64,000 nucleotides of DNA from an uncultured Acidimicrobiales bacterium (GTDB lineage Bacteria; Actinomycetota; Acidimicrobiia; Acidimicrobiales; Aldehydirespiratoraceae): contig CATQHS010000001.1 of NCBI GenBank assembly GCA_958296055.1, positions 2,080,277 to 2,144,276 of the forward strand. Reading direction: 5' to 3'. The translations under genes were made by a program, and so were the position numbers. Shown piece by piece: positions 7,001 to 26,854 of the stretch (the stretch's first letter is position 1; each line of letters opens with the position of its first letter). The notes below the pieces were generated by a model, which was not told the DNA's origin, searched no databases, and saw only the letters and a program-made list of their open reading frames with translations.

Positions 7001-7001
7001 C

Positions 7002-7238: not shown

Positions 7239-7378
7239 CAGATAGCTAGTGTTGAGGTTGTTGGGATAGCTCCAGTCTGCTTGAGCGGGTTTTGCATGAT
7301 GGCTCGGACGATGCTTTCTGGCGTCGGATATCGGTTCGGTTAGTTTTAGATACGGCACGGCGGCCGGGTTGGTCTTGA

Positions 7379-7402
7379 TCATGGGTCCTGCTCCCCGTCT
7401 GG
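7379..7402. repeat. Right copy of 24-bp direct repeat flanking the protease cassette
   Basis: Identical to 5758-5781. It encodes the C-terminus and stop of DrmMI on the minus strand. Between the two copies lie the SDH protease, the small ORF and a 140-base gene-free tail (7239-7378). Confidence 0.9.
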
Positions 7403-9538: not shown

Positions 9539-10896
9539 CAGCCGCCGGGCTCATAGACATGGCCGATCTGCTCCACATCGACCTGCCGGTAGGAGAGGCG
9601 GCGGGTGTCGGTGACGCCGGACGCCGATCGGAACCGCAACGTCAGCAAGGCGTCGAGCATGGCCAGAACGTCGAGGTCGGTGACGGGGATCGGCGTTCCC
9701 GGGCCATTGCGCCATTCCGAACCCCGGCCCTCCAGGAACGGAAACCGGTCGGGGTCGAAGAGGGCACCGCCGTAGGCGGGCATGACGAAATGGTGGGTGA
9801 GGTGATGGTGCTGCACGCCCGAATGCACGGCCCGGGCGGTGGCCAGCAGGCGGTGCCAGGCCGTTGATCTGGTCTCAAGGGCTTCAGGGTTGTCCTGCCG
9901 CCCGGCTTGGAGTTCTTCACGGAGCATCCGCACGGCGTAGAGCCTCTGATAGTCGAGGTCGTCCACCGGCAGCAGGCCGGATTCCTCGGCCCTCAACAGG
10001 AAGACCAGCCTCATCATCACCGTCACCGCGGCTTCGTACACCTCATGGGGCCCGACGCCTTCGAGCAGAGCTCCTTCCCGGTCGAGATTGGCCCGGGAGA
10101 TGGCGTTCACCAGCAGCTCGACCGCTTGGCGCACCTGGGTTCCGAGCTGGTTGGTGATGTCGGCCTGGGAGTCCACGGACTCGGCCAGCAGGGCCGAGGG
10201 TGTATCGCCGGGCTCGGCCGCAGTGAAGCGCCGGGCGTGGAGCATCGAGATGAACGAGCTGAGCAGGACGGGCTCGGAGGCGAACTCCGAGGCCCGCCAA
10301 GTCCCCCAACCGGTGGGGGTCTCTTTGTCGCGGGCGTGGACCAGCGTCAGATAGTCGCTGTCGGTCACCAAGGCGAGCGGAACGCCAAAATGACGGCAGG
10401 CCAGCGCGGCTCGCTGCACATGGGTGGCCGACCAGTTGTCGCCCCGGGGGCTGGCGAACGGCGACGTTCTCGCCGACAGCACGAACACCAGCACTCGGGG
10501 CTCCGGCGGTGGCGGGTCTTCGCCGTCGGGTTCGAAGTCGAAGCCGACCGGTGCCGCGGCCTTAGGGCAATGAGCACCGCTGGGCACGATGATCACGTCA
10601 TGACTGATGACCCCGGAGGCCAAATCATTTGGCAACTCGGAACTGGTCACGTAAGAACGGCCCCAGCCGAGGGCGTCGCGCAACAGCCAGTTCAGGTAAT
10701 CGGTCCAATCAGAGGTCTCGCGAGCGTCGGACCATCTGATCTTGTGCTCGGCGCGCGCTTCCTCCGAGGTCGGGTCCAGTCCCTGCGGGAAGGCCCGCTT
10801 GACCACGGGCAACGAGAACCACGGCGGTTCGGGGGCGGCGAGGTTGAGCCAGTCCTCGTGCTGGACCGCCGCCCGGCCGCTGGTCGGCCTCGCCAC
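9454..10896 (-). pseudogene. drmMI: DrmMI adenine methyltransferase, N-terminal fragment
   Basis: The GTG start at 10896 directly follows the drmD TAG. The frame reads through the N-terminal part typical of class 1 DrmMI: an endonuclease-like or specificity N-terminus (RVLVFVLSART), a helical region, and QVDVEQIGHVYEP near residue 450. In intact homologues that last motif continues as a GLL-type sequence before the methyltransferase core. Here it shifts out of frame at about 9545 and runs into a spurious tail (GGWWPSAAATEW). The expected D-P-x-x-G-S-G motif I is in neither fragment. The N-part and C-part therefore look like one gene with an internal deletion plus a frameshift. Confidence 0.7.
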
Positions 10897-13800
10897 CTAC
10901 CGCTCCCGGGCCGGTACCAGCAGCTCCACCGCCACCGGGAACCATTTGATATTCCGAACCTGGTAACGCTGGTGCAGATTCTCGATCTCGATGGCGATGT
11001 CGCCGTCGATCCGTTCGATGCGATTGCGCAGAGCGGTGATGTCGGTCTCGAATCTCTGGCGCTCCTCAGGGTCGAACAAGGGCAACTGCTCGAACAGAGA
11101 ACCCGACTCGATCTGTTCGAGGTGCCTGATGATCGAGGTCTTCAGATCGTTCAGGGTGCCGTGGAGCCGTTCCGCCTCCCGGTCGCGCTTGTCGTCCATG
11201 CGGCGCTCCCGCTGGCCTCGGATCTCGCCAGCCCTGGTTTTCAGCGCCTTTTTGAGCGCGGGCCGGACTCGGGGCCACTGGCCCGCGTAGCGATCCCGGA
11301 CGTGATCGGGAGGCGTGTCGTCGTAGGCGGCCGCCGCTGCGGTCCGGGTCTCTCCGACATTGAGGCGGCCCTGGCGGCCGCCCACCCGAACCGCGGCTGG
11401 CTCGATCACCTCGTCGAGGACCGACCCGTCCGCGCCGTTGACCACTACCCGGGCGTGAGCCACGGCCACCGGCTCGGGTACTTCCGCGTAACGAACCGCC
11501 ACCCGGTTGATGCTCCGATCGACGGCCGCCCCCCACACCTGGGCTCGAAGGGTTCGCAGGCAGCGGGCGACGAAGGGATGACCGACGTGCAGGTAGGCAA
11601 CGTCTTGATGACCCTGGGCCACGGAGGGATCGAAGGTGACCGGGCGCCGCCGGTCGACGACCTCGTCGTGGAGGCCGACCAGGGTCTCGCCCCAAGTGCC
11701 GGTGAGGTCCTGCACCTCGTGAACCGGAACCGGGCCGTCGGGCCGTTCGAGGCGAGCGGGCAGCAGCGGTGGCTGGCCCGCCACTCTCAGCCCGATCCGC
11801 ACGGCCCGTTCGATGGCGTCAGGGGTCATGTCCAGCTCGGCCACGCTGGCCTGGAATCGCTCGCGGACCTTGCCCATCTCGGCCTCGAACTCATGCTCCA
11901 GGCGTCTGAGGTCCACCCGGGCCTGGTCCCGCCGGGTGGTGATCAGATCGTCGATGTCGAGGTTGTCGTTGCCCTGGCGGAGCATTCGGGCCTCTATGCG
12001 CTCGGCCAGCACCGGCGACACCGCGCCCAGGTCGTCGCGGATGTCGTCCACTTTCTGCGCCACCCGGAGCAGGAAGGTGTGGTCGTAGCCGATGGTTTCG
12101 GCGGTGCCGGTCGGGCCGTCCTCCGGCGCTCCGGCGAAATGGTGGATCTCGACGTGAGGGCTCTTCTGGCCGTGGCGGTCGACTCGGCCGTTGCGCTGCT
12201 CCATCCGGTTGGGGTTGAACGGGATCTCGACGTGAACCAGCCGGTGGCACTGCATATGGAGGTCGATCCCCTCGGAGGCCGCGTCGGTGGCCAACAGGAT
12301 GCGGACCTTGGTCTCGGCCGGGTTGTAGTTGAACTCCCGGATGATCCGCTCTCGATCTTCGGTTGGGAGGCTGCCGTGGAACATCTCCACCCGATCCCGC
12401 ATCGGCGGCCGATCCGGGTGCTCGGCAGTGAGCATCTCGTGCAGATAGTTCAGCGTCGCCCGGTACTCGGTGAAGACGATCACCCGCTCGTTGTTCCAGG
12501 TTCCGTTCGGGTAACAGATCTCGCCGATCCAGTCGAGCAGCTTCTTGGTCTTGGTGTCGAGGCGGCGGTAGTTCGCGTCCGCCCTGACTCTGAGATCTTC
12601 GAGGACCCGGCGGGGTGCCCGGTAGGTGAGCGCCCGGGCCCGCATCCGGGCCAGCAGCACTTCATCGTTGGCGTCGGGGGCGGGCAGAGCTGAGGCGGCA
12701 ACGGCCAGCGCCTCGTGGACGAGCTCGTCGAGCACGGCGTCGTCTTCGACCTCGGCGTCGAGGGCGGCCGCGGCCTCTTCGATGGCCTGGGCCGAGGCTC
12801 GTCGGGCTGAGGCCCGGTTCATGGTCTGGATGTGCTGATCCAGGGTGTACTTGAAGGCCATGGGGGAGGAGAGCAGCCGCTTCTTCAGCAGCAACGCGAT
12901 GAACCGAGCCGCGGTCCGCTCGGCCTGGTCGGAGGAAGTGGCCCGCCGGGCCCCGGCGTACTCGTCGAGCAGTCCGAACATCTCCCGCTCGTTCTCGCTG
13001 AAATCGACCTCAATGGCCCGGATGCTGCGCTTGGGCAGACGCGAGCCGGCCTCGGGCAGCAGCCTGCGCAAATGCGACTTCAGCCGCCGGACCATCACCG
13101 CGTCCCGCTCGCGGTCGGTGACCGGTACCCCCTTGGCGAAGCGGTTGGGGTCGAGGAGTTCCAGAAGCGACTGGAACGACTCGGGGTAGCCGTTGTGGGG
13201 GGTGGCGGTGAGGAACAGCCGGTGCTCGAAGTGCGGGGCCAGCTCGCGCACCGCCTTGGTGCGCAGCGAGTCCTTGGCGTAGCGGCCCACCGCCGCCGGG
13301 GCGATCTGATGGGCCTCGTCCACGATCAGCAGGTCGAAGGCGCGGGGGTAGATGTTCGGATCGGGCGGCAGGAACTCGTGGAACCAGCGCATCTGGGAGT
13401 CGAACTTCACCCACTCCATCGACACGATGATCCGGGGGTGCGACCGGAACGGGTTCACCGCCACGCCCCGCTCGCGCCGAAGCTGCCGGACGTAGTCGGT
13501 GTCGATCACCTCGAAGCCCAGCCCGAACTTCTCGCCCATCTCGCTCTTCCACTTGCCGCACAGGCTGGGCGGGCAGATGACCAGGATCTTCTTCACCTGG
13601 TTGCGCAAAACCAGCTCTTCGGCGATCAGGCCGGCTTCGATGGTCTTGCCCAGCCCGACGTCATCGGCGATGAGCATCGTCACCCGAGGCATGGTCAGCG
13701 CTTTGACCAGCGGCAGGAGCTGGTAGTCCTCGATGTCGATCCCGGCCCGGAAAGGGGCCTGGAAAGCCGAGGGATCGGCGGAGGCCACCGCGCCCCAGCG

Positions 13801-14115
13801 CACCGCGTCTAGGAAGGCGGAGAAGGTCTCGGCGTCGTCCAGGCCCTTGGCCGGGTCGGGCAGGGCAGACTGATGCTTGATCTTGGTGCCGGGCTCCACC
13901 TCCCAGTACACGGTGAGCGGGTCCGGGCTCCCTTTGTCGTCGACGGGGACGAGCCCGACGGCGTGATGGACCGGCGGCGCGCCGATGGCCATCGGCCCAG
14001 CGGGCACGGGGTCGGAGGCAACGACCGACTCGACCACCCAGAGTCGGTCCCGCACCCGGACCAGGTTCCCCTGCTTGGGCACGGCGACGGCTCGGGGCGT
14101 CTCGACGAGGGCCAT
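10897..14115 (-). CDS. drmD: DrmD, DISARM SNF2-family helicase
   Basis: DrmD is the SNF2-like ATPase of class 1 DISARM. The protein is 1072 aa. Walker A is MLIADDVGLGKTIEAGL near residue 150. The DEAH box is LLIVDEAHQIAP near residue 267. Motif III is LFLTATPHNGY, and the C-terminal helicase signature is HVEIPFNPNRMEQRNGRVDR near residue 630. A long charged C-terminal region follows (LKKALKTRAGEIRGQRERR). The stop abuts the drmMI GTG, so the genes are one operon. All helicase motifs look intact, so the damage to the locus is confined to drmMI. Confidence 0.9.
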   Translation of the reverse strand: MALVETPRAVAVPKQGNLVRVRDRLWVVESVVASDPVPAGPMAIGAPPVHHAVGLVPVDDKGSPDPLTVYWEVEPGTKIKHQSALPDPAKGLDDAETFSAFLDAVRWGAVASADPSAFQAPFRAGIDIEDYQLLPLVKALTMPRVTMLIADDVGLGKTIEAGLIAEELVLRNQVKKILVICPPSLCGKWKSEMGEKFGLGFEVIDTDYVRQLRRERGVAVNPFRSHPRIIVSMEWVKFDSQMRWFHEFLPPDPNIYPRAFDLLIVDEAHQIAPAAVGRYAKDSLRTKAVRELAPHFEHRLFLTATPHNGYPESFQSLLELLDPNRFAKGVPVTDRERDAVMVRRLKSHLRRLLPEAGSRLPKRSIRAIEVDFSENEREMFGLLDEYAGARRATSSDQAERTAARFIALLLKKRLLSSPMAFKYTLDQHIQTMNRASARRASAQAIEEAAAALDAEVEDDAVLDELVHEALAVAASALPAPDANDEVLLARMRARALTYRAPRRVLEDLRVRADANYRRLDTKTKKLLDWIGEICYPNGTWNNERVIVFTEYRATLNYLHEMLTAEHPDRPPMRDRVEMFHGSLPTEDRERIIREFNYNPAETKVRILLATDAASEGIDLHMQCHRLVHVEIPFNPNRMEQRNGRVDRHGQKSPHVEIHHFAGAPEDGPTGTAETIGYDHTFLLRVAQKVDDIRDDLGAVSPVLAERIEARMLRQGNDNLDIDDLITTRRDQARVDLRRLEHEFEAEMGKVRERFQASVAELDMTPDAIERAVRIGLRVAGQPPLLPARLERPDGPVPVHEVQDLTGTWGETLVGLHDEVVDRRRPVTFDPSVAQGHQDVAYLHVGHPFVARCLRTLRAQVWGAAVDRSINRVAVRYAEVPEPVAVAHARVVVNGADGSVLDEVIEPAAVRVGGRQGRLNVGETRTAAAAAYDDTPPDHVRDRYAGQWPRVRPALKKALKTRAGEIRGQRERRMDDKRDREAERLHGTLNDLKTSIIRHLEQIESGSLFEQLPLFDPEERQRFETDITALRNRIERIDGDIAIEIENLHQRYQVRNIKWFPVAVELLVPARER

Positions 14116-14148
14116 CGTCGGTTGCGAGGGCTTGGCTGGGACGGGCGG

Positions 14149-14541
14149 TTAGGCGTTCTTCTCGGAGGCGGACCCGGGGACGTAGGTGCCCTTGTTGCGC
14201 CACAGGACCACCTCGTTGCCCCACGGGTCCCGGAAGGCGGCGTGGCGGGCGTCGAACTCCTCCCAGTACACCTCGTCCCACATCTTGGCCGCGCCCATCT
14301 CCATGGCTTCGGCCAGCTTGGCCGGAGGGTCGTCGACCATCACGTAGATCCGGGGCACCGGGCCGGTGACCGGCTCGGGCTCGAGGTGGATGCCCAGGTT
14401 GGGCTTCACCCCCGGCAGCACCTCGTGGAACTCACCGGCCGGGCGGCGCTTGTACTTCCAGTCGAACAGCTTCTCGTAGAACTGCGACGTGGCTTCGGGG
14501 TCGGGGGTGGGCAGATCCACGAAGATCAGCGGGTTCACCAT
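14149..14541 (-). CDS. VOC family (glyoxalase/bleomycin-resistance-like) protein
   Basis: A 130-aa single-domain vicinal oxygen chelate protein. It starts MVNPLIFVDLPTPDPEATSQ, and has DWKYKRRPAGEFHEV in the first beta-alpha-beta half and AAFRDPWGNEVVLW in the second, the usual C-terminal VOC signature. The start is supported by a good AAAGGAGAA site about 8 bases upstream. It ends 33 bases before drmD but belongs more naturally with the sugar kinase genes upstream. Substrate cannot be told from sequence. Confidence 0.85.
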   Translation of the reverse strand: MVNPLIFVDLPTPDPEATSQFYEKLFDWKYKRRPAGEFHEVLPGVKPNLGIHLEPEPVTGPVPRIYVMVDDPPAKLAEAMEMGAAKMWDEVYWEEFDARHAAFRDPWGNEVVLWRNKGTYVPGSASEKNA

Positions 14542-14591
14542 GCGGGGGTTCTCCTTTGGGTGCAGGGGGCGGTTCGGTCCTTTGCCGGGTC

Positions 14592-15893
14592 TCAGCCCTT
14601 TGTCAGTCGGGCCGCGGCGGCGTCGCCGGCCTCGATGAAGCGGCGGTAGGCGTCACGGTAGGCCGGGTCGGGCTCGGGGTCGATCCGGTGCATGGGCGGC
14701 AGGGGCCACGAGTCCATGTCGGCGGCGCCGATCCCGTCCCACCAGCCCACCGCCGCCCCCGCGGCCAGGGCGCACCCCCGGGCCGAGAGCTGGTCGGGCC
14801 GCTCCGGCGCCTCCACCGGCACTTCCAGCACCGAGGCCTTTATCCGACCCCACAGCCTGCTCAGGGCGGGCGAGCCCCCCGTGCCCAGCACCTCCAAGGC
14901 GATCCCGGACGCCTCCAAGCCCTCGCAGATGTGGCGCAGCCCGTAGGCCGCGCCCTCCAGCACCGCCCGGGCCACCTCGGCCGCCCCGGTCTCGAAGCTC
15001 AGCCCGTGGATCTCGCCTCGCAGCCGGGGCTCCCAGCGGGGGGCCCGCTCGCCGTCGTGGTAGGGGAGCACCAGCACCCCGCCCGCCCCCGGCGGCACCG
15101 CCTCGGCCCGCTCCAGCAGATCGGCCACGGACAGGCCCGACAGCGCCGACCACCACTCCAGCAGCTCGCCGTGGCCGTTCACCGGCCCGCCCACCACCTC
15201 CACTCCGGCCACGATGCCGTGGAACCCCACCACCTCGGGGGGCCGGTCGGCCGCGGCCACCGCCACCCCCACCCCGCCGGTGCGCCCGCCCGGGTCGTGG
15301 CCCCGGCCCGGTGTGCCCAGGCCCCCGGCCCAGAAGCTCATGTAGGCGTCGTTGGACCCGCTCACCAGCGGCGTCCCCGCCGCCAGCCCCAGCGATCCGT
15401 CGGCGTGGCCGATCACGACGCCCACCCCCACCGGCCGGCCGTAGCCGGGGATCGGGCCTTCGTCGGACCACAGGCCCTGCACGTCTCCGGCCCCGAGGCG
15501 GCGCAGGGCCCAGTCCCAGCTCTGGGCCGGGACGATCTCTCGACCCAGCTCGGCTTCCAAGAAATCGCGCTGGGCCAGGTGCTGGCCGATCCGGGCCTGC
15601 CCGTTGCCGGCCGGGTGCTGGCAGGTGACGGCCATCTCGTGGCTCATCGGCACCGTGGTGGGGCTTTGGCCGCCCACCCCCACCGCAGCGATGTCGAACC
15701 CGCCGCCGACCGCGCCCAGGGCCCGGCCCAACCCGGCCAGCCAGGCCTCGGGGTCGGCCCGGCCCGGCGGCCAGGAGTCGGCCCCGTCGAAGCGCTGGCG
15801 GGTCCAGGCCCTCACCTGGCCGCCGCGGTCCACGGCCACGGCCCGGACCCCGCTGCTGCCCAGGTCCACGCCGATCACGACGACGGTGGCCAT
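14592..15893 (-). CDS. FGGY-family carbohydrate kinase (xylulokinase-like)
   Basis: A 433-aa sugar kinase. The N-terminal phosphate-1 motif is VIGVDLGSSGVRAVAVDRGG. A mid region contains PLVSGSNDAYMSFWAGGLG, and the FGGY_C part has YGLRHICEGLEASG and VLGTGGSPALSRLWGRIKA. It is somewhat shorter than typical xylulokinase (about 480-500 aa). It lies just downstream of a zinc alcohol dehydrogenase on the same strand. The pair suggests oxidation of a polyol followed by phosphorylation of the ketose; the substrate is inferred. Confidence 0.85.
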   Translation of the reverse strand: MATVVVIGVDLGSSGVRAVAVDRGGQVRAWTRQRFDGADSWPPGRADPEAWLAGLGRALGAVGGGFDIAAVGVGGQSPTTVPMSHEMAVTCQHPAGNGQARIGQHLAQRDFLEAELGREIVPAQSWDWALRRLGAGDVQGLWSDEGPIPGYGRPVGVGVVIGHADGSLGLAAGTPLVSGSNDAYMSFWAGGLGTPGRGHDPGGRTGGVGVAVAAADRPPEVVGFHGIVAGVEVVGGPVNGHGELLEWWSALSGLSVADLLERAEAVPPGAGGVLVLPYHDGERAPRWEPRLRGEIHGLSFETGAAEVARAVLEGAAYGLRHICEGLEASGIALEVLGTGGSPALSRLWGRIKASVLEVPVEAPERPDQLSARGCALAAGAAVGWWDGIGAADMDSWPLPPMHRIDPEPDPAYRDAYRRFIEAGDAAAARLTKG

Positions 15894-15915
15894 GGCGACT
15901 GCGGGGCGGTCAGCG

Positions 15916-15983
15916 GGCCGGCATCAGCCGACCGGCGCCCGACTCCGATGCACCTGGGGAGAAACGGCCGGCATCAGCCGACC
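15916..15983. repeat. Duplicated 3' end of the alcohol dehydrogenase gene
   Basis: An exact 18-bp sequence at 15966-15983 covers the last codons and stop of the dehydrogenase. It is repeated at 15916-15933, 50 bases further downstream, followed by near-identical bases. It looks like a short tandem duplication of the gene end. Confidence 0.8.
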
Positions 15984-17000
15984 AGCACCCGGTACACGGG
16001 GGAGGAGGAGGCCAGATCCATGGCGACGGCCACGTCGGCCAGCCCGTAGCGGGCGGTGACCAGCCGGTCGAGGTCGGGGGCCAGCACCCCCGAGCGCAGC
16101 AGCCCGGCCGCGGTCTGCCAATCCGAGGGCTCCTGGCTGTAGACCCCGATGACCGACAGCTCGTGGTGGTGGATGCGGTCCACCGGAACCGAGGCGGTGA
16201 CCTCGGCGGGGAAGGCCCCGTACAGCACCACCGACCCGCCGTCGTCGCACAGGTCCAGGGCTGCCTCCACCGTGCCGGGCACCCCGGCGGTCACGAACAC
16301 CACGTCGTGGCCGCCCGTCCAGCCGTTGGGGCCGCCGAGTTCGTCGGGGGCGACCGCCCGGTCGGCCCCGGCGTCGATCGCCTCGGCCCGACGGGCCTCG
16401 CTCGGGTCCACGAACCCCACCGAGGCCGCTCCCCAGGCCCGGCACACGGCCTGATGCAGCCGGCCCATGTAGCCGGCGCCGATCACCGCCACCCGGTCGC
16501 CGGATCGGAACCCGCTCAGCCGCACCGAGTGGACCACGCAGGCCAGCGGCTCGCCCATGGTGGCGTGCTCCACCGGGATCTCGCCCACCGCGAAGGTCTG
16601 GGCCGCGGCCACCCGCACCGCCTCCGACAACCCCGCCCCCATGGATATGGTGCCGTCGCTCAGGGCCCCGCCCTGGGGCTGCTTGCACAAAGCGCTGCGC
16701 CCTCGCCGGCACATGCGGCAGGTGCCGCAGCGGGTCAGCAGATCCATGGTGACCAGATCGCCGATTTGGGGCGACCCGTCCAGGGCGGCCGCGGCCTCGC
16801 CCGCCTCCACCACCCGTCCAGCCGCCTCGTGGCCCGGCGCCACCGGGTAGATCCGCTTGGTGCCCGAGAACAGCCGCCGCTCCATGGTGCACAGGCCACA
16901 GGCGGCCACCTCCACCACCACGTCGTCGGGTCCAGGCCGGGGCCGGGGCTCGTCGCGCAGCTCGACCGAGCCCGGACCGGTGACGACGGCGACCTTCATG
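15974..17000 (-). CDS. Zinc-binding alcohol/polyol dehydrogenase (MDR family)
   Basis: The start is set at the ATG complementary to 16998-17000 (MKVAVVTGPGSVELRDEPRP), with GGAGG 5 bases upstream. This gives 341 aa, usual for medium-chain dehydrogenases; the frame stays open to 17182 but the extension has no family similarity. Features: catalytic zinc Cys in CGLCTMERR, the GHEAAGRV motif, a four-Cys structural zinc lobe (CGTCRMCRRGRSALC), and a Rossmann VAVIGAGYMGRLHQAV. Similar to sorbitol/threonine dehydrogenases. Both its start region and its end are duplicated in tandem. Likely partner of the FGGY kinase. Confidence 0.88.
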
Positions 17001-17064
17001 CTTCCTCCCGGCCGGTGACGACGGCGACCTTCATGCTTCCTCCCGGCCGGTGACGACGGCGACC
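16977..17064. repeat. 35-bp tandem repeat spanning the dehydrogenase start
   Basis: About 2.5 copies of a 35-bp unit. Each full unit contains a GGAGG site, an ATG and the first codons (MKVAVVTG). Because 35 is not a multiple of 3, the upstream copy starts a 12-codon ORF (MKVAVVTGREEA) whose stop overlaps the real ATG (ATGA). It could act as a coupled leader or be neutral. Confidence 0.85.
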
Positions 17065-17174
17065 ACAGTGCGGGCGACCCTAGCCGGGCTCGTCCACCGG
17101 AGTTCCCTCCGGCCGACGGCAAGGAGCCCGATTCGGGCGCGGCCCGGGCCTCGCGGTGGGCGATGACGGCCGTG

Positions 17175-17200
17175 CCGGCCACGGTGGCCAGCTCGAAGGC
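17175..17200. repeat. 26-bp scar identical to the amidohydrolase gene
   Basis: Identical to 19225-19250 inside the amidohydrolase gene and in the same orientation. In the minus frame it encodes AFELATVAG. It sits at the border between GC-rich DNA and the AT-rich glycosyltransferase island (17201-18911). Confidence 0.8.
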
Positions 17201-17207
17201 TTGGATT

Positions 17208-18896
17208 TCATGGATCAGTTATTCGGTAGATCGTGGCCTCAGGTGTCTGGACTATAGGTTCCAAATACGGCGATAATTTTGGCTCCAATTCTGCAATTGG
17301 ACAAGTTTTTACCCAGTTCTTGTTGAAGTATACGATGTAGGTAGGGTCTGATGTCAAACCTTTAACCCAGGCCAAGCAACCCCTGTCTTGGTCAGGATAG
17401 TGTGGAATAAACGGCACGAGCCTTTGCCGCTCAAAGGCGAACCAATAGATTGCGGCGCTCTCGTTGCTATAAATCTGGCCATCTATAGGATTCTCTCTTA
17501 AATATCTTATCATCTCTGTGTCGGAGGTGTACCCATGTATATGGTTCTCAGCATCATCTGCTAAAGCCGCAGAGGTAGTCCATAGATTCATTCGTGAAGC
17601 GGTGACGATACTGCTAAAGAGACCAATTAATATAAAACAAATGGTGGTCCAACTCATGAAGGCTAGTCGTCGGGCACTGCTATATAGAAGCCGGTCCAGC
17701 CCTACTATTATCACCAACAGAACTGGTATATATGCAGGAGCTAAATATCGGGGCAGTATGCGTATTGACTCTACTAAAGAAGTCATTGCAAGGATTGGTA
17801 AATATATTATAACGAATAGACTAAAGGGTAGAGCCAACTTCCAGCTAATCGGCTCTCTAAACTCCTCCCCCTTCTCAAAGACACCCCTCCGGCATGGGTG
17901 GGGCCTCAAATAGGAGACAATTTCGATGCGATATAAACGGCAGAATAACAGTAATCCTATAAGTAACGATGCAACTATACTGATAACTACCCATGTGTTA
18001 TAGTTCCATGCTTGGCGAATCCACAACCACTGATATCCAATATCATAAATTTCATGTAATCTATCAGGTAGTTTACTCATCAAGTTATTTATCAGTCCAC
18101 CCTCTCTTTCTTCATAAATGTAACCATCACCTACTCGTCTCTGACCAAAAAGAGTACCGGAAGTTAGATAGTTTCTAGTTACCCAAGCTGTCAGGGGTGT
18201 TGACGATATGGCCGTGTAGAAGGCTACAGATTTTAATTTATCATATAGTATTGAGAAGCCTGGACGTACTAGTATTATGATAATCCCGGTCAATATAACT
18301 ACAACCCCGAGGTAGCGCGTTGTTGCCGCGAGAGCGCTGAAGCCTGCCGACCAAGCCAGGGTGGGCCAAGATCGGTCTGGTGATTTGAGAAATGAACTCA
18401 TCTTTACCAAGGCTAGCAACGTAAATAAGATGAACAGGGTATCGGTTCTTAACCACGACGGTTCTGAACTCAATGGAATAGCTGACACCAGAGCTATAGC
18501 TGATATCACTACTAAGAATGGGTTCCTTATATGGCGGTTTAGCCAGTGATAAGTAACCCATAGAATAATACCGAATCCAATAATATTAACGACCCTCCCT
18601 GCATCTACGGGATCAATTCCGAGCCAGGCAAAGACGGCCAGGAGCAAAGGGAAAAGAGGTGGCTTTAAAATGTACGTAGCCTGACTGTAAGTTAGGAAAC
18701 CGTTCCCAGCAGCCAAGTTTTCTGCCACTGAAACATACGACACGCTGTCTACAGTTATATTCGGTCCGTAGTTGGAGGTACGGATGTAAAGATGAGCTAC
18801 ACCTAGTAGGATCATCAACACTTGGAATATGTAAATGACCGAACCCTGATGACGAGTCCGTGCAAGCCATGAACGCCAATTACGGTGAAGAATCAC
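17208..18896 (-). CDS. GT-C-like polytopic membrane glycosyltransferase (GT39-type), probably acquired
   Basis: A 562-aa AT-rich gene. The first membrane segment (VIYIFQVLMILLGVAHLYI) is followed by NITVDSVSYVSVAENLAAG, an acidic first-loop pattern of GT-C enzymes that use polyprenyl-phosphate sugars, then KPPLFPLLLAVFAWLG. About ten hydrophobic segments follow. A C-terminal extracytoplasmic domain contains SNESAAIYWFAFERQR. The start is taken as GTG at 18896; it is uncertain because the ribosome-binding site is weak. Base composition is far below its neighbours, and a 26-bp amidohydrolase scar lies beyond its end. The sugar acceptor cannot be told. Confidence 0.7.
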   Translation of the reverse strand: MILHRNWRSWLARTRHQGSVIYIFQVLMILLGVAHLYIRTSNYGPNITVDSVSYVSVAENLAAGNGFLTYSQATYILKPPLFPLLLAVFAWLGIDPVDAGRVVNIIGFGIILWVTYHWLNRHIRNPFLVVISAIALVSAIPLSSEPSWLRTDTLFILFTLLALVKMSSFLKSPDRSWPTLAWSAGFSALAATTRYLGVVVILTGIIIILVRPGFSILYDKLKSVAFYTAISSTPLTAWVTRNYLTSGTLFGQRRVGDGYIYEEREGGLINNLMSKLPDRLHEIYDIGYQWLWIRQAWNYNTWVVISIVASLLIGLLLFCRLYRIEIVSYLRPHPCRRGVFEKGEEFREPISWKLALPFSLFVIIYLPILAMTSLVESIRILPRYLAPAYIPVLLVIIVGLDRLLYSSARRLAFMSWTTICFILIGLFSSIVTASRMNLWTTSAALADDAENHIHGYTSDTEMIRYLRENPIDGQIYSNESAAIYWFAFERQRLVPFIPHYPDQDRGCLAWVKGLTSDPTYIVYFNKNWVKTCPIAELEPKLSPYLEPIVQTPEATIYRITDP

Positions 18897-18911
18897 AGGA
18901 TTAGATAAGCC

Positions 18912-20372
18912 CTAATGGCAGTCGATGTGGGGCCAGAGACGGGGAATCTCCAGGCCAGCTCGGGCCAGCAGCGACCGTTGGGCCTCGACGGCCCGGTCCC
19001 GCAAGTCGTCTAAATCCACGGTGACGCACACCCCGTCGCGCACCACCGGGCGGCCCGCCACCACCACATCGCGCACCGACCGGCCGTCGGTGCCCCATAC
19101 GAGCTGCAAAACCGTCTCGCCCCGGGGTGTCCAGGAGATTGAGGAGGTGTCGTGGACCACCAGGTCGGCTTGCTTGCCCGGCGCGATGGAGCCGATCCGG
19201 TCGCCCATCCCGATGGCGGCTGCCCCGGCCACGGTGGCCAGCTCGAAGGCGGTGTGGGCGCCGAAGCGCTCCGGGTCCACCCTGGCGTCGCGGGCGATCC
19301 CGGCCGCCAGCGCGGCGGCTCGCAGGATGTCGCAGGTGTCGCCGGCGTTGGAGGCGTCGCAGCCCAGCGCCACTCGGCCCCCCCGCTCGGTGATCTCGGC
19401 GTGGCGGCCCTGGCCGGTCACCCCCTGGCCCAGCCGCAGGTAGGCCCACGGGCAGTAGGCGACGGCGGTTCCGGTGGCGAGCACCAACTCCACCTCGGCG
19501 TCGTCCAGCCACACCCCGTGGCCGATCAGCAGATGGGGGCCGAGCACCCCTAGGGCGTCCAGGTGAACCAGGGGCCGCCGCCCGGTGCGGGCCAAGTAGC
19601 GCTCCGGGTCCGACGAGGTGGGCGACATGTGCATAGTCAGGCCCGTGCCCCGGTCACGGGCCAGATCGGCCGCCCCGTCCAGCAGCTCGTCGGAGGCCAG
19701 GTCGTGGCCCACCAGCGTCACCCACCCCTCCACCAGCCCGCCCGGGGGGTGGGCGTCGAGTACCGCGGCCTGGCGGGCCAGCACCTCGTCGGCTCCGGCG
19801 GCGAACGGGCCCTGCTCGATGTCCCAGCCCCAGGTGCCCATGGTGCCCCTGATCCCGGCTGCCTCCATGCCGGCCACGGCCCGGTCGGGATGGGCGACGG
19901 TGCCGGCTTCCACCACGGTGGTCACCCCGTTGGCGAGGTTCTCCACCGACGACAGCAGCGCGGAGAGTTCGTCGTCGTCGCCGGTGTGGGCCCCGTGGGC
20001 CGGAACCGACCACTCGAAGATGGAGGCGCCCGGGGGCAGCAGGTCGGGGATGCAGCTCCGGATCAGCGGGTCGCCGGTGAGGTGCTGGTGGGCGTTGACC
20101 ATCCCCGGGGTGACCACACACCCCGCGGCGTCGATCACCGCCGCGCCCCGGTGGCGGGCGGCCAGCTCGGCGGCGGACCCGACCTCGGTGATCACCTGGC
20201 CGCGAACGGCCACCGCCCCGCCCACCAGTACCTCTCGGCGGGGGTTCATGGTGACCACGTCGCCGCCGACGATCAACAGGTCGGCCCCGTTCGGCCTCCC
20301 CCCGGCGGGTGCGGGACCGGCCTCGCCCCGGTTCGCCTCGATGGCGGGGCCGTCGGCGTTCGAGTCGTCCAC
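18912..20372 (-). CDS. Amidohydrolase (SAH/chlorohydrolase-like metal-dependent deaminase family)
   Basis: The start is put at GTG 20372 (VVDDSNADGPAIEANRGE), giving 486 aa; the frame is open much further upstream but that part overlaps the divergent aldehyde dehydrogenase. Motifs of the subtype III amidohydrolase barrel: the N-terminal composite domain LLIVGGDVVTMNPRREVLVGG, the metal site TPGMVNAHQHL, HMSPTS, LIGHGVWL, and the terminal Asp in VALGCDASNAGD. The C-terminal IGSIAPGKQADLVV is typical. It is cytoplasmic. It is divergent from ALDH with about 40 bases between starts. A nearby amidase suggests nitrogen-compound breakdown. Confidence 0.87.
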   Translation of the reverse strand: MDDSNADGPAIEANRGEAGPAPAGGRPNGADLLIVGGDVVTMNPRREVLVGGAVAVRGQVITEVGSAAELAARHRGAAVIDAAGCVVTPGMVNAHQHLTGDPLIRSCIPDLLPPGASIFEWSVPAHGAHTGDDDELSALLSSVENLANGVTTVVEAGTVAHPDRAVAGMEAAGIRGTMGTWGWDIEQGPFAAGADEVLARQAAVLDAHPPGGLVEGWVTLVGHDLASDELLDGAADLARDRGTGLTMHMSPTSSDPERYLARTGRRPLVHLDALGVLGPHLLIGHGVWLDDAEVELVLATGTAVAYCPWAYLRLGQGVTGQGRHAEITERGGRVALGCDASNAGDTCDILRAAALAAGIARDARVDPERFGAHTAFELATVAGAAAIGMGDRIGSIAPGKQADLVVHDTSSISWTPRGETVLQLVWGTDGRSVRDVVVAGRPVVRDGVCVTVDLDDLRDRAVEAQRSLLARAGLEIPRLWPHIDCH

Positions 20373-20414
20373 GACCGGAGCATAGGCCCCGGCCTGCGTG
20401 CCAGAATCCGCCCC

Positions 20415-21977
20415 ATGACTGCCGACACCGTTGACACCTCCACCGACACCGCTAGCGCTGGCGCTGGCGCCGACCGGATCGAACCGGCCTGGATCTCGTC
20501 GGACCCCTACCGCCAGCTCATCGACGGCGCCGAGCGGGGCGACGGCCCGACCCGCCCGGTGCTGGACCCGTCCACCGGGGCCGAGCCCGCCGCCTGGCTG
20601 GAGGCGACCCCGGCCGAGGTGGGCGCGGCGGTGGCCGCCGCCCGCCGGTCCTTCGACTCCGGGGTGTGGGCCCGGGCCTCCAACCCGGCCCGGGCCGAGG
20701 TGCTGGAGGCGGCCGCGGCCCGCATCCGGGCCGACGCCGACCGCTTGGCCGCCCTGGAGGCCCTTGACACCGGCAAGGCGGTGGGCGGGGCCCTGATCTT
20801 CGACGTCCACGAGGCCGCCACCGCTTTCGCTTGCGCGGCCGGGGCGGCCCGCGACCTGCACGGCGACGTGCGCCGGGGGGCGTTCCCGCCCCTGCTGCTG
20901 CCCGGCGGCGGCCCCGACCTGTGGAACCTGCGGCTGCCCGAGCCGGCCGGGGTGGTGGCCGAGCTGCTCCCCTGGAACGGGCCGCTCATGACCGGCAGCC
21001 AGCGCATCGCCGCCGCCTTGGCCGCCGGGTGTTCGGTCGTGGCCAAGCCGCCTGAGGAGGCTGTGGTCACCCTGGTCGAGTTGGGCCGCATTCTGGCCGA
21101 GTGCGGGCTGCCCGACGGCGTGCTCAACATCGTGTTGGGTCCGGGTGAGACGGTGGGCGAGCAGCTCGTGGCCGACCCCCGGGTCGATCTGGTGAGCCTC
21201 ACCGGCAGCCCCGAGACCGGCCGGCGGGTGATGGGCCTGGCCGCCGCCAACCTCACCCCGGTTCACCTGGAGCTGGGGGGCAAGGCCCCGGTGGTCGTCT
21301 TCGCCGACGCCGACCTAGACCAGGCCGCCCAGTGGGCCATGATGGCCGCCTTCGTAAACATGGGCGAGGTGTGCGTGGCCGGCAGCCGCCTGCTGGTGCA
21401 GCGGCCCGTCTACGAGCAGGTCACCGAGGCGGTGGCGGCCATGTCGGCCGGGCTGCCCATCGGCGACGCCCTGCACCCCGACACCTTCATCGGTCCCCTG
21501 GTGAACCCGGCCCACGCCGACCGGGTGAGGGGCTTCATCGACGGCGCCGTCGGCGACGGCACCGCCTCGCTCGTCGGGGCCGGGCGGGTGCCCGAGGGCC
21601 TGCCTTCGAGTTTCGTGGCCCCCACCGTGCTGGGCCGGGTGCAGCGGGGCTCGACCCTGGAGCAGACCGAGGTGTTCGGGCCGGTGCTGGCCGCCCTGGC
21701 CTTCGACGACGACGACGAGGCCCTGGCCATCGCCAACGGCACCCCCTACGGGCTCAACGCCGCGGTGTTCACCGCCGACATGGGCCGGGCCCTGCGGATG
21801 GCCCAGGAACTGGACGTGGGCGAGGTCACCGTCAACCACCACTTCTCGGCCGACATGAACGGGGGCCGGGGCGAGCCCCGCAAAGCCAGCGGCTTCGCCC
21901 GCACCGGGGTGGAGGCCTATACCCGGGTCAAGTCGGTGGCGCTGGTGGCCCGCCCGTCGCTGGGCCAGGGCGGGTGA
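20415..21977 (+). CDS. Aldehyde dehydrogenase (NAD(P)-dependent)
   Basis: A 520-aa aldehyde dehydrogenase beginning MTADTVDTSTDTAS. Family motifs: PWNGPLMTGSQRIAAALAAG (oxyanion Asn) near residue 195, SLTGSPETGRRVMG (cofactor loop), LELGGKAPVVVFADADLD (general base Glu) near residue 285, and catalytic Cys in NMGEVCVAGSRL near residue 320. It ends KASGFARTGVEAYTRVKSV. It has a slightly extended, Thr/Ala-rich N-terminus. It probably oxidises an aldehyde made by the neighbouring dehydrogenase or amidohydrolase pathway; substrate unknown. Confidence 0.9.
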   Translation: MTADTVDTSTDTASAGAGADRIEPAWISSDPYRQLIDGAERGDGPTRPVLDPSTGAEPAAWLEATPAEVGAAVAAARRSFDSGVWARASNPARAEVLEAAAARIRADADRLAALEALDTGKAVGGALIFDVHEAATAFACAAGAARDLHGDVRRGAFPPLLLPGGGPDLWNLRLPEPAGVVAELLPWNGPLMTGSQRIAAALAAGCSVVAKPPEEAVVTLVELGRILAECGLPDGVLNIVLGPGETVGEQLVADPRVDLVSLTGSPETGRRVMGLAAANLTPVHLELGGKAPVVVFADADLDQAAQWAMMAAFVNMGEVCVAGSRLLVQRPVYEQVTEAVAAMSAGLPIGDALHPDTFIGPLVNPAHADRVRGFIDGAVGDGTASLVGAGRVPEGLPSSFVAPTVLGRVQRGSTLEQTEVFGPVLAALAFDDDDEALAIANGTPYGLNAAVFTADMGRALRMAQELDVGEVTVNHHFSADMNGGRGEPRKASGFARTGVEAYTRVKSVALVARPSLGQGG

Positions 21978-22082
21978 CATCGACGGGATCAGGGCCATCG
22001 CCCGGAGCGCCGGGGCGGGGCGGGTGACGGGCGCGGGCGGGCCCGTCCGTCGCCGGACGGTGATGCCGCGGGGGCGGGGCGG

Positions 22083-23210
22083 GTGATCCTGCAGCCGGGC
22101 CGGGGCCGCATCAACAGCGACAACTACCTGCCGGTTGATCCGGGAACGAGCTGCTGGGGGTGGTGGCCGAGCCGGGCCGCCGAGCCGGTGATGGCCGTGG
22201 ACGACGGGGCCGTGGTCACCGTCGACACCCTGTCGCACGAGGGGATCATGGAGGACCAGGGCCGGGACCCGGTCGGGTTCTTCGGCGCGCACGGGGTGGA
22301 GCGGTCGGCGGTGCTCGCCGACGCCGTGGCTTTCGCCGATGAGGCCGACCACCGTTACGGGATCGACGGCGCCCACGTGGTTACCGGGCCGATCAAGGTT
22401 CGGGGGGCCGAGCCGGGGGACCTGCTACGGGTGGACGTGCTGGGCGCGGCCATGCGGGTGCCTTACGGGGTGACCTCCAACCGGCACGGGCTGGGGGCCC
22501 TGCCCGGCGAGATGCCCAACGGCGCCGAGCCGGCCTCGGCGGTGGCCTGGAGCGCCGGCCACGGCACGGTCTCGGTGTTCACCTCGGTGGAGGGCGCCGG
22601 GGTGGAGGCCGCCGCGGTGCTGCGCTACCGGCCCGAGGGCTCCGGTGTCGAGCGGGAGGAGCGGGAGATCCGATATCCGGTGGCGCCGTTTTTGGGGATG
22701 ATGGGGGTGGCTCCAGACGCCGACGGCCCGGTGCCGTCTCGCCCGCCGGGCCGCCACGGCGGCAACCTGGACGTGAAGTGGCTGACCGCGGGTGCCGCGC
22801 TGTATGTGCCGGTGCAGGTTCCGGGGGCCTTGTTCGCGGTGGGCGACCCCCACTTCGCCCAGGGCAACGGCGAGGTGGCGTTGACTGCCCTGGAGGGTTC
22901 GCTGCGGGCCGATCTGCGTTTGTCGGTGCTGCGGAGCCCAGAGGCCCGGCGGGCGGTCGGGCTGATCGACAATCCTTTCGTTGAGACTGACAAGCACTGG
23001 ATCCCGATCGGGCTCCACACCGACCTAGACGAGGCCATGCGAGGCGCGGTGCGGGAGGCTCTGCGGTTCTGCCGGACCCGGCTGGCCCTGCCCGCCCACA
23101 TCGCCTACGCCTATTTGAGCGCGGCGGCCGACTTCGAGGTCACCCAGGTGGTCAACGAAGTGAAGGGCGTCCACTGCCGGATCCGCAAACGCGACTTCTC
23201 CGGCTGCTAA
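22083..23210 (+). CDS. Acetamidase/formamidase family protein
   Basis: A GTG start gives 375 aa (VILQPGRGRINSDNYLPVDP). It matches the FmdA_AmdA family: HVVTGPIKVRGAEPGDLLRVDVL in the first half, then NLDVKWLTAGAALYVPVQVPG and FAVGDPHFAQGNGEVALTALE, which hold the conserved D-H and E of this family. It hydrolyses short amides to acid and ammonia. It lies 105 bases after ALDH on the same strand; that gap is filled with GGGGCGGG-type short repeats. With the amidohydrolase it suggests amide nitrogen salvage. Confidence 0.85.
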   Translation: MILQPGRGRINSDNYLPVDPGTSCWGWWPSRAAEPVMAVDDGAVVTVDTLSHEGIMEDQGRDPVGFFGAHGVERSAVLADAVAFADEADHRYGIDGAHVVTGPIKVRGAEPGDLLRVDVLGAAMRVPYGVTSNRHGLGALPGEMPNGAEPASAVAWSAGHGTVSVFTSVEGAGVEAAAVLRYRPEGSGVEREEREIRYPVAPFLGMMGVAPDADGPVPSRPPGRHGGNLDVKWLTAGAALYVPVQVPGALFAVGDPHFAQGNGEVALTALEGSLRADLRLSVLRSPEARRAVGLIDNPFVETDKHWIPIGLHTDLDEAMRGAVREALRFCRTRLALPAHIAYAYLSAAADFEVTQVVNEVKGVHCRIRKRDFSGC

Positions 23211-23636
23211 AATATGAAGGCTGCTCTCGGAACTGATAGCTCGTAATCGAAGAATCACCCGGATCTTCCAGCTCTAAATGATCCAACTGTCACCGCCGAT
23301 CGCCCCCGAAATTGAGCCCAGCGTCAAAGGGCTAACAGCGCTGATAAACACGCGTGTTGGGTCCGGGGCGCTTCGTCAGGTGGTGGCTGGCATGCCTCCA
23401 CCGTAGCGACGGCCCCGCCGTCTCACCCCTAACCGCGGCCCGTCCGCCTCGGGGCGGCCCGGCCGCCTTCGGGGGTGACTGTCACAGGGGGTGGTTACGG
23501 TTTCGATCACGGTTTCATGGACCTCTCGGCCGGGCCGGCCGGCGGGGTCCGTCACTTCCCCGGACCGACTCGCCGGCTGCGGCCGGCCCGCAAGTCGATG
23601 CTGGTCCCGTTGGGGCCTTTGTGAGGGGAGGACGCC
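23211..23636. other. Intergenic region with no recognised gene
   Basis: About 425 bases. The first 130 are mixed-composition and stop-rich in all frames (tgaaggctgctctcgg onward). The rest is GC-rich and carries only frames antisense to or out of phase with the HNH gene. A good GGGGAGGAC site at its right end serves the HNH gene. No RNA gene, terminator stem or repeat was seen. Confidence 0.5.
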
Positions 23637-24989
23637 GTGTTCGACCGGTTTGCAACCGAACTGAACGCCCTGGACCCGTCGGTGATGGGTCCTGCTGGGC
23701 GGCGCGACGCCGCGGTCGGGGTGAAACGGGTGCGGGCCGCGCTGGACGCCTTCGAAGCCCGGCTGCTGAAGGCGGCGGCCGATCGGTCGGCCGACGGCTG
23801 CGCCAAGACCGGGATCGAGCTGATGCGGACCGCGGGCGGCTGCTCCCAGCGCGAGGCCCGCCGCCGGTCTCACCGGGCCGAGGCTCTGGCCGAGATGCCC
23901 GCGGTGGCCGGGGCGCTGGCCGAGGGGGCCATCACCGCCGAACACGCCGACGCCTTGGTCCGAGCCGCCCAGGCCACTTCGGCCGAGGCGGTGGACGCCG
24001 ACCCGAGCCTGCTGGAGCGGGCCAAGTCGATGCCCGCTGACCTGGCCGCCCGAGAGGTGACCGACTGGACCTGCCGCCACCAGTCAATGGAAGACCGCGA
24101 GGCCAAGTTCCGCCGCCAGCGGGCCATGCGCAGCCACCGGGCTTGGATCGGCGGCGACGGCATGGTCAACTTCCGCACCCGCTTGGACCCTGTGACCGGC
24201 GCCCAGGCTCGGGCCGTCTTCGACGACATCTCCAACCGGCTGTACCAACTCGACGGCGGCCGTGATGGGAAGCCGGATCAGGCCCGCACCTGGGATCAGC
24301 GCAACGCCGACGCCTTCGCCGCTGCTTTGGGCATAAACCCCGTCCCCGGCTCGGGCCACAACGGTGGCGAGTTCAGCGGCATCGGTCAGCATCCTGCCGC
24401 CAAGCCCGTGAGCAAAGACCCCAGCCGTGAGACCGCCGCCCCCGCCGGCCGGGACACTCCAGCTCTGAGCCTGCGCAACCAGATCCTGGTTATCGCCCAC
24501 AGCGACGCCATCACTGGCGCCGACCCCCTCGCCCGCTGCGAAATCCCCGGCGCCGGTCCAATACCGAGTTCCGAGCTTGAGCGCCTGGCCTGCCAAGCCG
24601 ACATATTCGGAGCGCTTTTCTCCCGCGACGGCCTTCCCCTGTGGCACGGCCGCCGGGTTCGAACCGTCTCACCTCAGCAATGGCGGATGCTCGTGGCCCG
24701 AGACCGCGGTTGTGTCCTCTGCGCGGCCAGCCCGTCCTACTGCCACGCCCACCACATCGTGGCCTGGACCGCCCCTTCCAAAGGCCCCACCGACATCGAC
24801 AACCTCGCCCTGGTCTGCAACCGGCACCACCACCACATTCATCAACACGACCTCACCCTCACCCGCGGTCCTGACGGTCAATGGACTGCCGGCGCTCTCG
24901 GCCAACCGCGGACCGCAGGCGCCCGCCGTCGACCAGACAGAACCTCGGCGGGCAACAGCCGAATACCGGCTGTGGGTCTAGAGGCCTGA
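23637..24989 (+). CDS. DUF222/13E12-type HNH endonuclease
   Basis: A GTG start (after GGGGAGGACGCC) gives 450 aa. The N-terminal two thirds are the helical DUF222 region (AALDAFEARLLKAAADRSAD, AITAEHADALVRAA, GGDGMVNFRTRLDPVTGAQ). The C-terminal HNH domain has CVLCAASPSYCHAHHIV and NLALVCNRHHHHIHQHDL, a zinc-bound beta-beta-alpha nuclease. This family is multi-copy in actinobacteria and is often linked to mobile elements. Its 3' end overlaps tadC by 12 bases, tail to tail. Role unknown. Confidence 0.9.
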   Translation: MFDRFATELNALDPSVMGPAGRRDAAVGVKRVRAALDAFEARLLKAAADRSADGCAKTGIELMRTAGGCSQREARRRSHRAEALAEMPAVAGALAEGAITAEHADALVRAAQATSAEAVDADPSLLERAKSMPADLAAREVTDWTCRHQSMEDREAKFRRQRAMRSHRAWIGGDGMVNFRTRLDPVTGAQARAVFDDISNRLYQLDGGRDGKPDQARTWDQRNADAFAAALGINPVPGSGHNGGEFSGIGQHPAAKPVSKDPSRETAAPAGRDTPALSLRNQILVIAHSDAITGADPLARCEIPGAGPIPSSELERLACQADIFGALFSRDGLPLWHGRRVRTVSPQQWRMLVARDRGCVLCAASPSYCHAHHIVAWTAPSKGPTDIDNLALVCNRHHHHIHQHDLTLTRGPDGQWTAGALGQPRTAGARRRPDRTSAGNSRIPAVGLEA

Positions 24990-25877
24990 CATGCCTGAGA
25001 TGGTGCTTGAGTCCATGATCCCGGCCAGGGGCGGATAGCCCATCAGCACCATGAAGGCGCCGCCGATGAGGGCCAGAGGCGCCCCCATCTTCTCGCTGGA
25101 GGAGGCCGCGGCCGCGTCGGCTTCGAACATGGCCTTGGACCGGGCCGACTCGACTTGGGCCAGGATCGTCCGGCGGGACTCCGCCCCGGTGGTGCCGGCC
25201 AGCTCCAGTGCGGCGCAGAACGGGTCCAGGAACCGCAGCCGGCGGGCGTCGGCCATGGTGCGCAGCCCCGTCCACGGGGGCTCGCCCCGGGCGGCCGACA
25301 CCCGCAGCGCCTCCTGGAGGGTCACGAACACCGGCTGCTCGCTGTAGGAGGCGGCCTTGACCAGCGCGGCGAACGTGTCGGAGCCAGCCGTGACCAATTG
25401 GCCAGCCAGCTCCAGCCACGACTCGGTCACCTGCTGGAAGTAGAGCCGCTCCTTGTCGGCCTCGGTGCGCAGCATGGAGTCGGGCAGCCACCATCCCAGC
25501 CCGGCCCCCACGGCGCCGACCAGTGCCAGGGCCGGGGTGGGGACGGCCAACCCGAACAGCGACAAGAACAGCCCGAACCCGACGGCTACGGCCAGGCCCA
25601 GCACCAGCCCGGCCGCCTTGGCCAGGGCGTGCACCTCCAGGGACCGGCCCACCATCAGCGCGTCCTGCACCAGCTCGGCTTTCTTTTGCAGGTTTCGCTG
25701 GATCAGCTCTTTCAAGCCCCGGGACTGCTTGGTGCCATCGGCGGGCCGGGCTGCGGCCGGGTTGGCGGGCTGGCTTTCGTTGGGCTCGGGTCGGACCGCG
25801 AACGCCCATATGACCAAGAACAGCCCCAGTCCTACGGCCGCGCCCAGAGCCAGCACCGCCGAGGTCACGAGCGCCAC
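24978..25877 (-). CDS. tadC: TadC-like type II secretion F domain membrane protein
   Basis: A 299-aa inner-membrane protein of the Tad pilus machine. An N-terminal membrane segment (VTSAVLALGAAVGLGLFLVIWAF) and further segments at about 90-135 and at the C-terminus enclose a cytoplasmic T2SSF helical bundle (FAALVKAASYSEQPVFVTLQEALRV). The GTG start lies 13 bases inside the end of tadB, so the two are coupled. Together with TadB it would form the platform on which TadA drives pilin assembly. Assignment as TadC rather than TadB is from order. Confidence 0.8.
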   Translation of the reverse strand: MALVTSAVLALGAAVGLGLFLVIWAFAVRPEPNESQPANPAAARPADGTKQSRGLKELIQRNLQKKAELVQDALMVGRSLEVHALAKAAGLVLGLAVAVGFGLFLSLFGLAVPTPALALVGAVGAGLGWWLPDSMLRTEADKERLYFQQVTESWLELAGQLVTAGSDTFAALVKAASYSEQPVFVTLQEALRVSAARGEPPWTGLRTMADARRLRFLDPFCAALELAGTTGAESRRTILAQVESARSKAMFEADAAAASSSEKMGAPLALIGGAFMVLMGYPPLAGIMDSSTISGMSGL

Positions 25878-26854
25878 CCCACGTTTTGGATCTCGCTCTT
25901 GGCCCCGCCCGCGCTCTTGGCCTTGCCCTTGGCCTTGGCCGCACCCTGGCCGGGGCTGGCGCTAGCGCCGACGCCGGCACCGGCGGGAGCGTCGATCTCA
26001 AGCAGTCGGATGGGCGTGCCCGACTCCGACAGCTTCAGCACCCAGAAGATGCTGCCCGCCATCAGTCCGCCCACGCCCATCAGCACGGCTTGGCCGGTGA
26101 CGGTGCCGAACGGCTCGAAGAACCCCCGGTTCACGACGGCCAGCAGCGCCACCACCACGAACGTGACCAGCAGGATGGACACCACCTGGGTCCAGGCCCG
26201 GCTGTTGGCCACCTCGTTGCGCCGCCGCATGTCCACCTCGGCCCGCATGGCCCGGGCCGCGCTCTCGAACGCCTCGGTCACCCGGGCGCCGGAGTCCCAG
26301 GCGATGCGAAGGCCCAGCACCAGCCGGTCGGCGTAGGGGGAGCGCATCTCCGAGGCGAACCACTCCATGGCCGCGGGCAGCCCCAGGGTGCGGGCCATGG
26401 CCGCCATGTTCATCACCGCCGGGCGCAGCAGGGCCGGCGCGTTGTCGGCCGACAGGGTCACCGCCTCGAACAGCGAGCCGCTGGCCCCGACCAGGTCGCG
26501 GATCTGCTCGGTCCACTGCGAGTAGGCCTCGATCTCCTCGGTGGCCCGGCGCCGCCGTTTCGGCGCCTGCGCTATCTGCGGCCCGGCCCAGCCAGCCACC
26601 ACGCCGATCAGCGCCGCCGCGTACCAGCGGGTGAGCAGCCACGCCACCAGGCCCAGCCCAAGGCTCAGCGCTATCTGCATCGTGTTGTCGGCCCGCTTGG
26701 TGGCCTGGGCCGATCGGGGCCCCTTGGCCTTGAACTTCTTGAGCTTCAGCGGTGCTTTCCGGGTCGGCGGCGGCTTGCGGGTGAAGCCGACCACGACCGC
26801 GAAGAGGCCAATCCCCAACGCCGCCCCCAGCAGGACGACGACTGGCCCGATCAC
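25865..26854 (-). CDS. tadB: TadB-like type II secretion F domain membrane protein
   Basis: A 329-aa platform protein. The N-terminal membrane segment is GPVVVLLGAALGIGLFAVVVG, followed by a basic linker (TRKAPLKLKKFKAKG) and a second segment. The T2SSF domain includes WTEQIRDLVGASGSLFEAV and VLGLRIAWDSGARVTEAFE, and a final pair of membrane segments begins at about residue 225. The C-terminus carries a Lys/Ala/Gly-rich tail (GAAKAKGKAKSAGGAKSE). The start overlaps the tadA stop by 4 bp. Confidence 0.83.
   Translation of the reverse strand: MIGPVVVLLGAALGIGLFAVVVGFTRKPPPTRKAPLKLKKFKAKGPRSAQATKRADNTMQIALSLGLGLVAWLLTRWYAAALIGVVAGWAGPQIAQAPKRRRRATEEIEAYSQWTEQIRDLVGASGSLFEAVTLSADNAPALLRPAVMNMAAMARTLGLPAAMEWFASEMRSPYADRLVLGLRIAWDSGARVTEAFESAARAMRAEVDMRRRNEVANSRAWTQVVSILLVTFVVVALLAVVNRGFFEPFGTVTGQAVLMGVGGLMAGSIFWVLKLSESGTPIRLLEIDAPAGAGVGASASPGQGAAKAKGKAKSAGGAKSEIQNVGWRS

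Follow-up and report, generated by a model that had tools for sequence, protein, structure and literature searches.

Homology-facilitated illegitimate recombination (HFIR) is the nearest described route to the arrangement reported here. Its products, according to PMC3240628, usually combine a deletion of similar size with 3-10 bp of microhomology at the illegitimate joint, and PMC5361080 proposes an HFIR route for effector-immunity modules. Genomic islands with an integrase and att repeats offer a further point of comparison, as do, for the encoded protein, GT-C enzymes of the ArnT and PMT type. In searches that reached a limited part of the literature, we found no paper describing the combination of features seen at our locus. 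It lies in a window of 64,000 nucleotides (the whole stretch of DNA analysed) from an uncultured Acidimicrobiales bacterium, where an AT-rich gene for a GT-C-type membrane glycosyltransferase (GT) stands alone between two metabolic genes, an amidohydrolase and an alcohol dehydrogenase (ADH).

Read along the minus strand, on which all three genes lie, the order is amidohydrolase, 15 bp, GT, 7 bp, a 40-bp amidohydrolase fragment (the scar), about 96 bp of filler, 2.7 copies of a 35-bp unit and ADH (Table 1). An earlier, sequence-only reading had described a lone, low-GC GT-C gene directly after the amidohydrolase stop and an exact 26-bp piece of the amidohydrolase at the far border in the same orientation, and both descriptions are borne out. 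The GC content is 0.44 in the GT gene and 0.71 across the whole window, and third-position GC is 0.44 against 0.88-0.95 in six host genes (ALDH left out). According to the ORF list, read by eye, the GT is the sole long ORF in the island, and its transcription may come from its two same-strand neighbours.

Table 1. Coordinates of the features discussed (positions in the window unless another place is named).
Feature	Position	Strand	Remarks
DrmB	198-2075	-	
DrmA	2072-5761	-	
DrmMI, in two ORFs	9454-10896 and 7379-9538	-	profile parts 6-433 and 671-1327
DrmD	10897-14115	-	
Zinc-type alcohol dehydrogenase ORF (ADH), downstream neighbour	15974-16999	-	PF00107, PF08240
35-bp unit, 2.7 copies, over ADH start	16971-17064	-	absent from the sequence-only reading
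Filler between scar and ADH repeats, about 96 bp	17065-17160	.	no strong second source in the genome
Scar, 40-bp amidohydrolase fragment	17161-17200	-	36/40 identical; exact 26-mer 17175-17200; 7 bp past GT stop
GT-C-type membrane glycosyltransferase ORF (GT)	17208-18896	-	562 aa, AT-rich
Complete amidohydrolase ORF, upstream neighbour	18912-20375	-	start codon uncertain; PF01979, E 2e-33
Amidohydrolase-internal repeat copy	19211-19250	-	exact 26-mer 19225-19250
Further own GT homologues	79k, 1475k, 1918k, 2055k, 2682k, 2767k, 2770k		2055k copy broken
Related ORF	594k		917 residues; GC 0.49; two copies of C-terminal domain
C-terminal domain sites	G000:C1:594042-594710; L016 8646-9152; also loci L051-L053		
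Three close GT copies	L012 7836-9521 and 10728-12383; L013 8942-10585		near-identical first halves, divergent second halves

Elsewhere in the window, PADLOC reports a DISARM class 1-like gene set at 198-14115, all on the minus strand, in which DrmMI appears to be broken. DrmA and DrmMI are separated by an AT-rich SDH_protease-like ORF (PF01972; 6005-7000) that runs on the plus strand, opposite to theirs, and has no PADLOC match. In addition, self-matches reveal in-frame-looking repeat arrays in a proline-rich coding region, at 27101-27863 and 29335-29813.

Among the seven intact copies of the GT in this genome, five reach PMT_2 and three reach PMT at E≤0.1 (Pfam; best 1e-4), and six partially match NF047440 of NCBIfam (LA_3751/LA_3752 family putative glycosyltransferase; best 1.3e-8). 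Membership of NF047440 was rejected for the window GT, which scores 32 bits against a cut-off of 200. An AlphaFold2 model of the protein (m111e9115be50), built from ten sequences and of moderate confidence (pLDDT 65.8, pTM 0.72), has the many membrane helices and the periplasmic part of the GT-C fold. Foldseek returned ArnT (5ezm/5f15; E 1.1e-7) as its best match, followed by Pmt4, ALG9 and oligosaccharyltransferases (OST), and nearly all of the 24 PDB matches at E≤1e-3 are GT-C enzymes or oligosaccharyltransferase-containing complexes. The model shares the polytopic membrane fold and the C-terminal soluble part with enzymes of the ArnT and PMT type, from which the window GT differs in having no Pfam match and no relative by sequence among PDB chains at E≤0.01. 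Its assignment to the GT-C type is well supported by the predicted structure. Enzymes of the GT-C superfamily carry a catalytic acidic residue in the first external loop; D50 is invariant across the seven own copies, and its column is not invariant in a ten-row alignment with outside homologues. The GT is probably a polyprenyl-phosphate-sugar-dependent membrane glycosyltransferase that would decorate a surface glycan. The sequence-only reading also raised phage receptor change, with which exchanges of surface glycosyltransferases are commonly associated and in which this GT might conceivably play a part.

Synteny in relatives, a check proposed in the sequence-only reading, shows that the GT and its scar are not conserved in place. 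Both neighbours are held by five of the six sister-genus genomes searched and are adjacent without the GT in all five, with 33-41 bp between the end of the amidohydrolase alignment and the ADH start; the sixth genome (G004) yielded neither neighbour at 1e-30. The amidohydrolase is 84% identical to its counterparts in two relatives, G013 (of the sister genus) and G019, and across 41 genomes (our own and 40 relatives) it passes 1e-60 in 14 and ADH does so in 3, our own being counted in both. Because the neighbours adjoin without the GT in the sister genus, the GT is an insertion, a foreign gene placed in the short amidohydrolase-ADH gap after the split from that genus. The event is real and recent, and it is a compositionally foreign but ordinary kind of gene acquisition. 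Could the gene instead be ancestral at this site and lost in the sister genus? Distant homologues in other families of the order would allow it (29 of 397 genomes of the order, including our own, match the GT family profile at 1e-20, the host's family being absent among the other 28 matches listed), but the foreign codon make-up, the lack of any GT homologue at 1e-3 in 24 same-family genomes and the five genomes with an intact short gap make such a loss barely credible. A weak GT homologue is present in a genome of another family (G034). The empty site is also found for a second own copy, at 1475k, in five of five sister-genus genomes. In the sister genus (G013 contig C3), about 6-7 kb separate the empty site of the 1475k gene from that of the window gene, and here the distance is 620 kb, which indicates that the region was rearranged.

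A genome-wide search for the 26-mer, another of the suggested checks, located it at exactly two places in 3.3 Mb, allowing up to 3 mismatches. The repeat is beyond chance, as none of 2000 randomly placed pairs of 1-kb flanks, set 1.7 kb apart (overlapping draws from 184 kb of the same genome, GT loci excluded), attained 26 bp; among them, exact direct repeats measured 22 bp at most. The repeat lies in the amidohydrolase reading frame, with matching residues AFELATVAG. If these residues came from a region conserved in amidohydrolases, the 26-mer might reflect chance or motif similarity, as its reading frame and the roughly 40 bits of the best other genome matches to the junction segment (17040-17215) would allow; yet the local amidohydrolase copy scores 55 bits against that segment and is the sole match to the 26-mer within 3 mismatches, and with the outcome of the placement control we consider this explanation very unlikely. 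Beyond itself and the local copy, the junction segment found no second source in the genome above about 40 bits. Past the 40 bp, no amidohydrolase homology was detected in the GT-ADH gap (local score 18; shuffle mean 18.9; 716 of 1000 shuffles as high), and an eroded longer amidohydrolase tail in the filler was rejected for want of such a signal.

The direct repeats had also been thought to allow excision of the island. As a clean reversal this is not supported, since the old site would not be regained: recombining the two 26-mers would take out the GT together with the last ~103 amidohydrolase codons and fuse the remainder in frame to ADH, giving a 783-codon open frame. A pair of exact, genome-unique direct repeats is what one might expect of an excisable element that leaves cleanly through them, but one 26-mer is part of the coding sequence of the amidohydrolase, reading the listed ORFs of 10000-27000 by eye revealed none that is integrase-like, and border repeats within 1 kb of the six other intact copies reach 12 bp at most, far from 26 bp, so that such an element is hardly conceivable here. 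Like a genomic island with an integrase and att repeats, the insert is AT-rich and bordered by direct repeats; it differs in comprising a single gene, in showing no integrase-like ORF, in having no tRNA gene anywhere in the window and in the position of one repeat within a coding sequence. A site-specific or mobile unit with fixed ends was likewise rejected, as the border repeats differ among copies and no shared end sequence was visible by eye except in the close trio.

We postulate, with a probability of roughly 0.7, that the GT was inserted after the sister-genus split and that the scar is a by-product of joining and not an excision site. Its presence implies that the GT was at one time flanked by amidohydrolase sequence on either side, or that such sequence was copied as the ends were joined, and we infer that it arose by one-sided recombination or local duplication. 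Perhaps recombination was anchored in the amidohydrolase on one side, with an illegitimate join on the other; or, perhaps the amidohydrolase end was duplicated locally and the redundant copy then mostly deleted. The sequence-only reading had proposed an imprecise insertion or a duplication followed by deletion: the insertion is supported by the empty sites, and the route would still be the best class of explanation. As in HFIR, there is a recipient-like piece on one side of the insert and none on the other, and the 26-40 bp of amidohydrolase sequence past the GT might represent the homologous anchor. The similar-sized recipient deletion of HFIR is absent, however, both neighbours being complete and the relatives' gap so short. 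Given that just 26-40 bp of amidohydrolase are recognisable, the recombination route rests on little sequence.

A fuller version of the window arrangement is shown by the 2682k copy (L013), where the GT island lies between a complete gene (putative pheS) and its broken direct copies (100% over 59 bp, 95% over 208 bp). In G013 and G019, 83 bp separate the two sides. Besides the GT, this place contains a DDE_3 transposase ORF and a fragment of the 2767k flank. The 79k copy (L015) carries a multi-kilobase direct duplication, and together with the 2682k remnants it speaks for duplication, or else one-sided recombination, with subsequent decay. In addition, at the 2055k copy (L016) right-flank DNA recurs as a direct repeat of 36 bp (92%) starting at the edge of the broken GT, and no comparable direct repeat was found at 1475k (L011), 1918k (L014) or the 594k GT. 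A possible, if unlikely, alternative is that the GT was end-joined or template-switched and that repair templated on adjacent DNA produced the 40 bp, and perhaps the 35-bp ADH units as well, the amidohydrolase not having been duplicated before. It would suit a junction that carries short copies from both neighbours and an amidohydrolase match that ends after the 40 bp, but the match is 36/40 instead of exact, and what was copied at 2682k is a long, internally deleted remnant of a gene, a better fit to duplication and decay. Insertion with a scar left by joining is our preferred account of the window locus. The notion that direct repeats flank GT copies as a rule was rejected: such repeats (1.5-6 kb apart, E≤1e-6) occur in 3 of 7 GT stretches and 4 of 20 evenly spaced 12-kb control stretches, with no clear enrichment, the GT duplication at L012 itself not being counted.

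More interesting than the single insertion is the scattered GT-C set to which it belongs. The genome holds six more intact GT homologues and one broken one, scattered and all AT-rich, with a GC content of 0.42-0.46 in the intact copies. An AT-rich patch, at the same threshold, is present in 8 of 20 evenly spaced 20-kb stretches (one patch being the 594k GT), and AT-rich DNA is therefore not confined to GT-type genes. A C-terminal domain of about 100 residues, with no Pfam match, is found at the C-termini of three own GTs (L011, L014 and L015), twice on the 594k protein and once alone. In three Dehalococcoidia genomes there are 33, 30 and 42 GT-profile matches, about 85 of the 105 to the C-terminal end alone, often in tandem.

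A single scan of GTDB contigs gave 17 relatives, the best four of them from uncultured Dehalococcoidia (31-42% identical), whose records we take to be sponge-associated. The GC content of these homologues is within about 0.05 of that of their flanks, and no AT-rich donor was found, the nearest homologues not being AT-rich. A viral origin was rejected, as viral contigs gave 127 pattern matches and 0 relatives. The phylogeny that the sequence-only reading had called for comprises 27 rows (7 own, 12 loci from three Dehalococcoidia genomes and 8 others) and leaves out 10 of the 17 scan matches (two being the same gene via another locus), the broken copy and the 594k gene. In this tree the window GT pairs with the 1475k copy, these two and the trio at 2682k, 2767k and 2770k join one Dehalococcoidia group, and the 79k and 1918k copies fall among other Dehalococcoidia genes. 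A single clade for the seven own copies is rejected (p-AU 8e-5, with a long-branch warning). Judging from the tree, at least two GT acquisitions are likely.

The trio offers a closer view of how such genes may change. The 2682k and 2767k places have about 220 bp in common past the GT stop, at 98%, which indicates that the 2682k copy was made within its own genome or a close ancestor. In the first 245 codons dN is 0.03-0.06, and in the middle it is 0.15-0.20, with dN/dS of 0.73-0.77. Polarised changes give an equilibrium GC of 0.42, and the trio is therefore not drifting toward host composition. A run-clustering test counted 116 runs against a minimum of 132 in 5000 shuffles, to which local misalignment at indels may add. 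The test supports mosaicism of the trio, and recombination with other AT-rich alleles explains both its divergence pattern and its composition, with relaxed or diversifying selection as an alternative.

It is tempting to speculate, although we regard the idea as rather doubtful, that the AT-rich GT-C genes form a scattered and mosaic repertoire maintained by this genome, that they entered it on more than one occasion from an unseen AT-rich source on which neighbours such as Dehalococcoidia also drew, and that reshuffling mainly of the second half, likely the acceptor-recognising part, would yield a changeable surface glycan. The window GT illustrates that a single gene of foreign make-up can take its place between two others with neither harmed, and that border repeats are not necessarily the sign of a mobile element. 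If the broader idea is true, the repeated gain of one enzyme type, together with variation concentrated in the second half of three close copies, would make surface-glycan diversification directly testable in an uncultured lineage.
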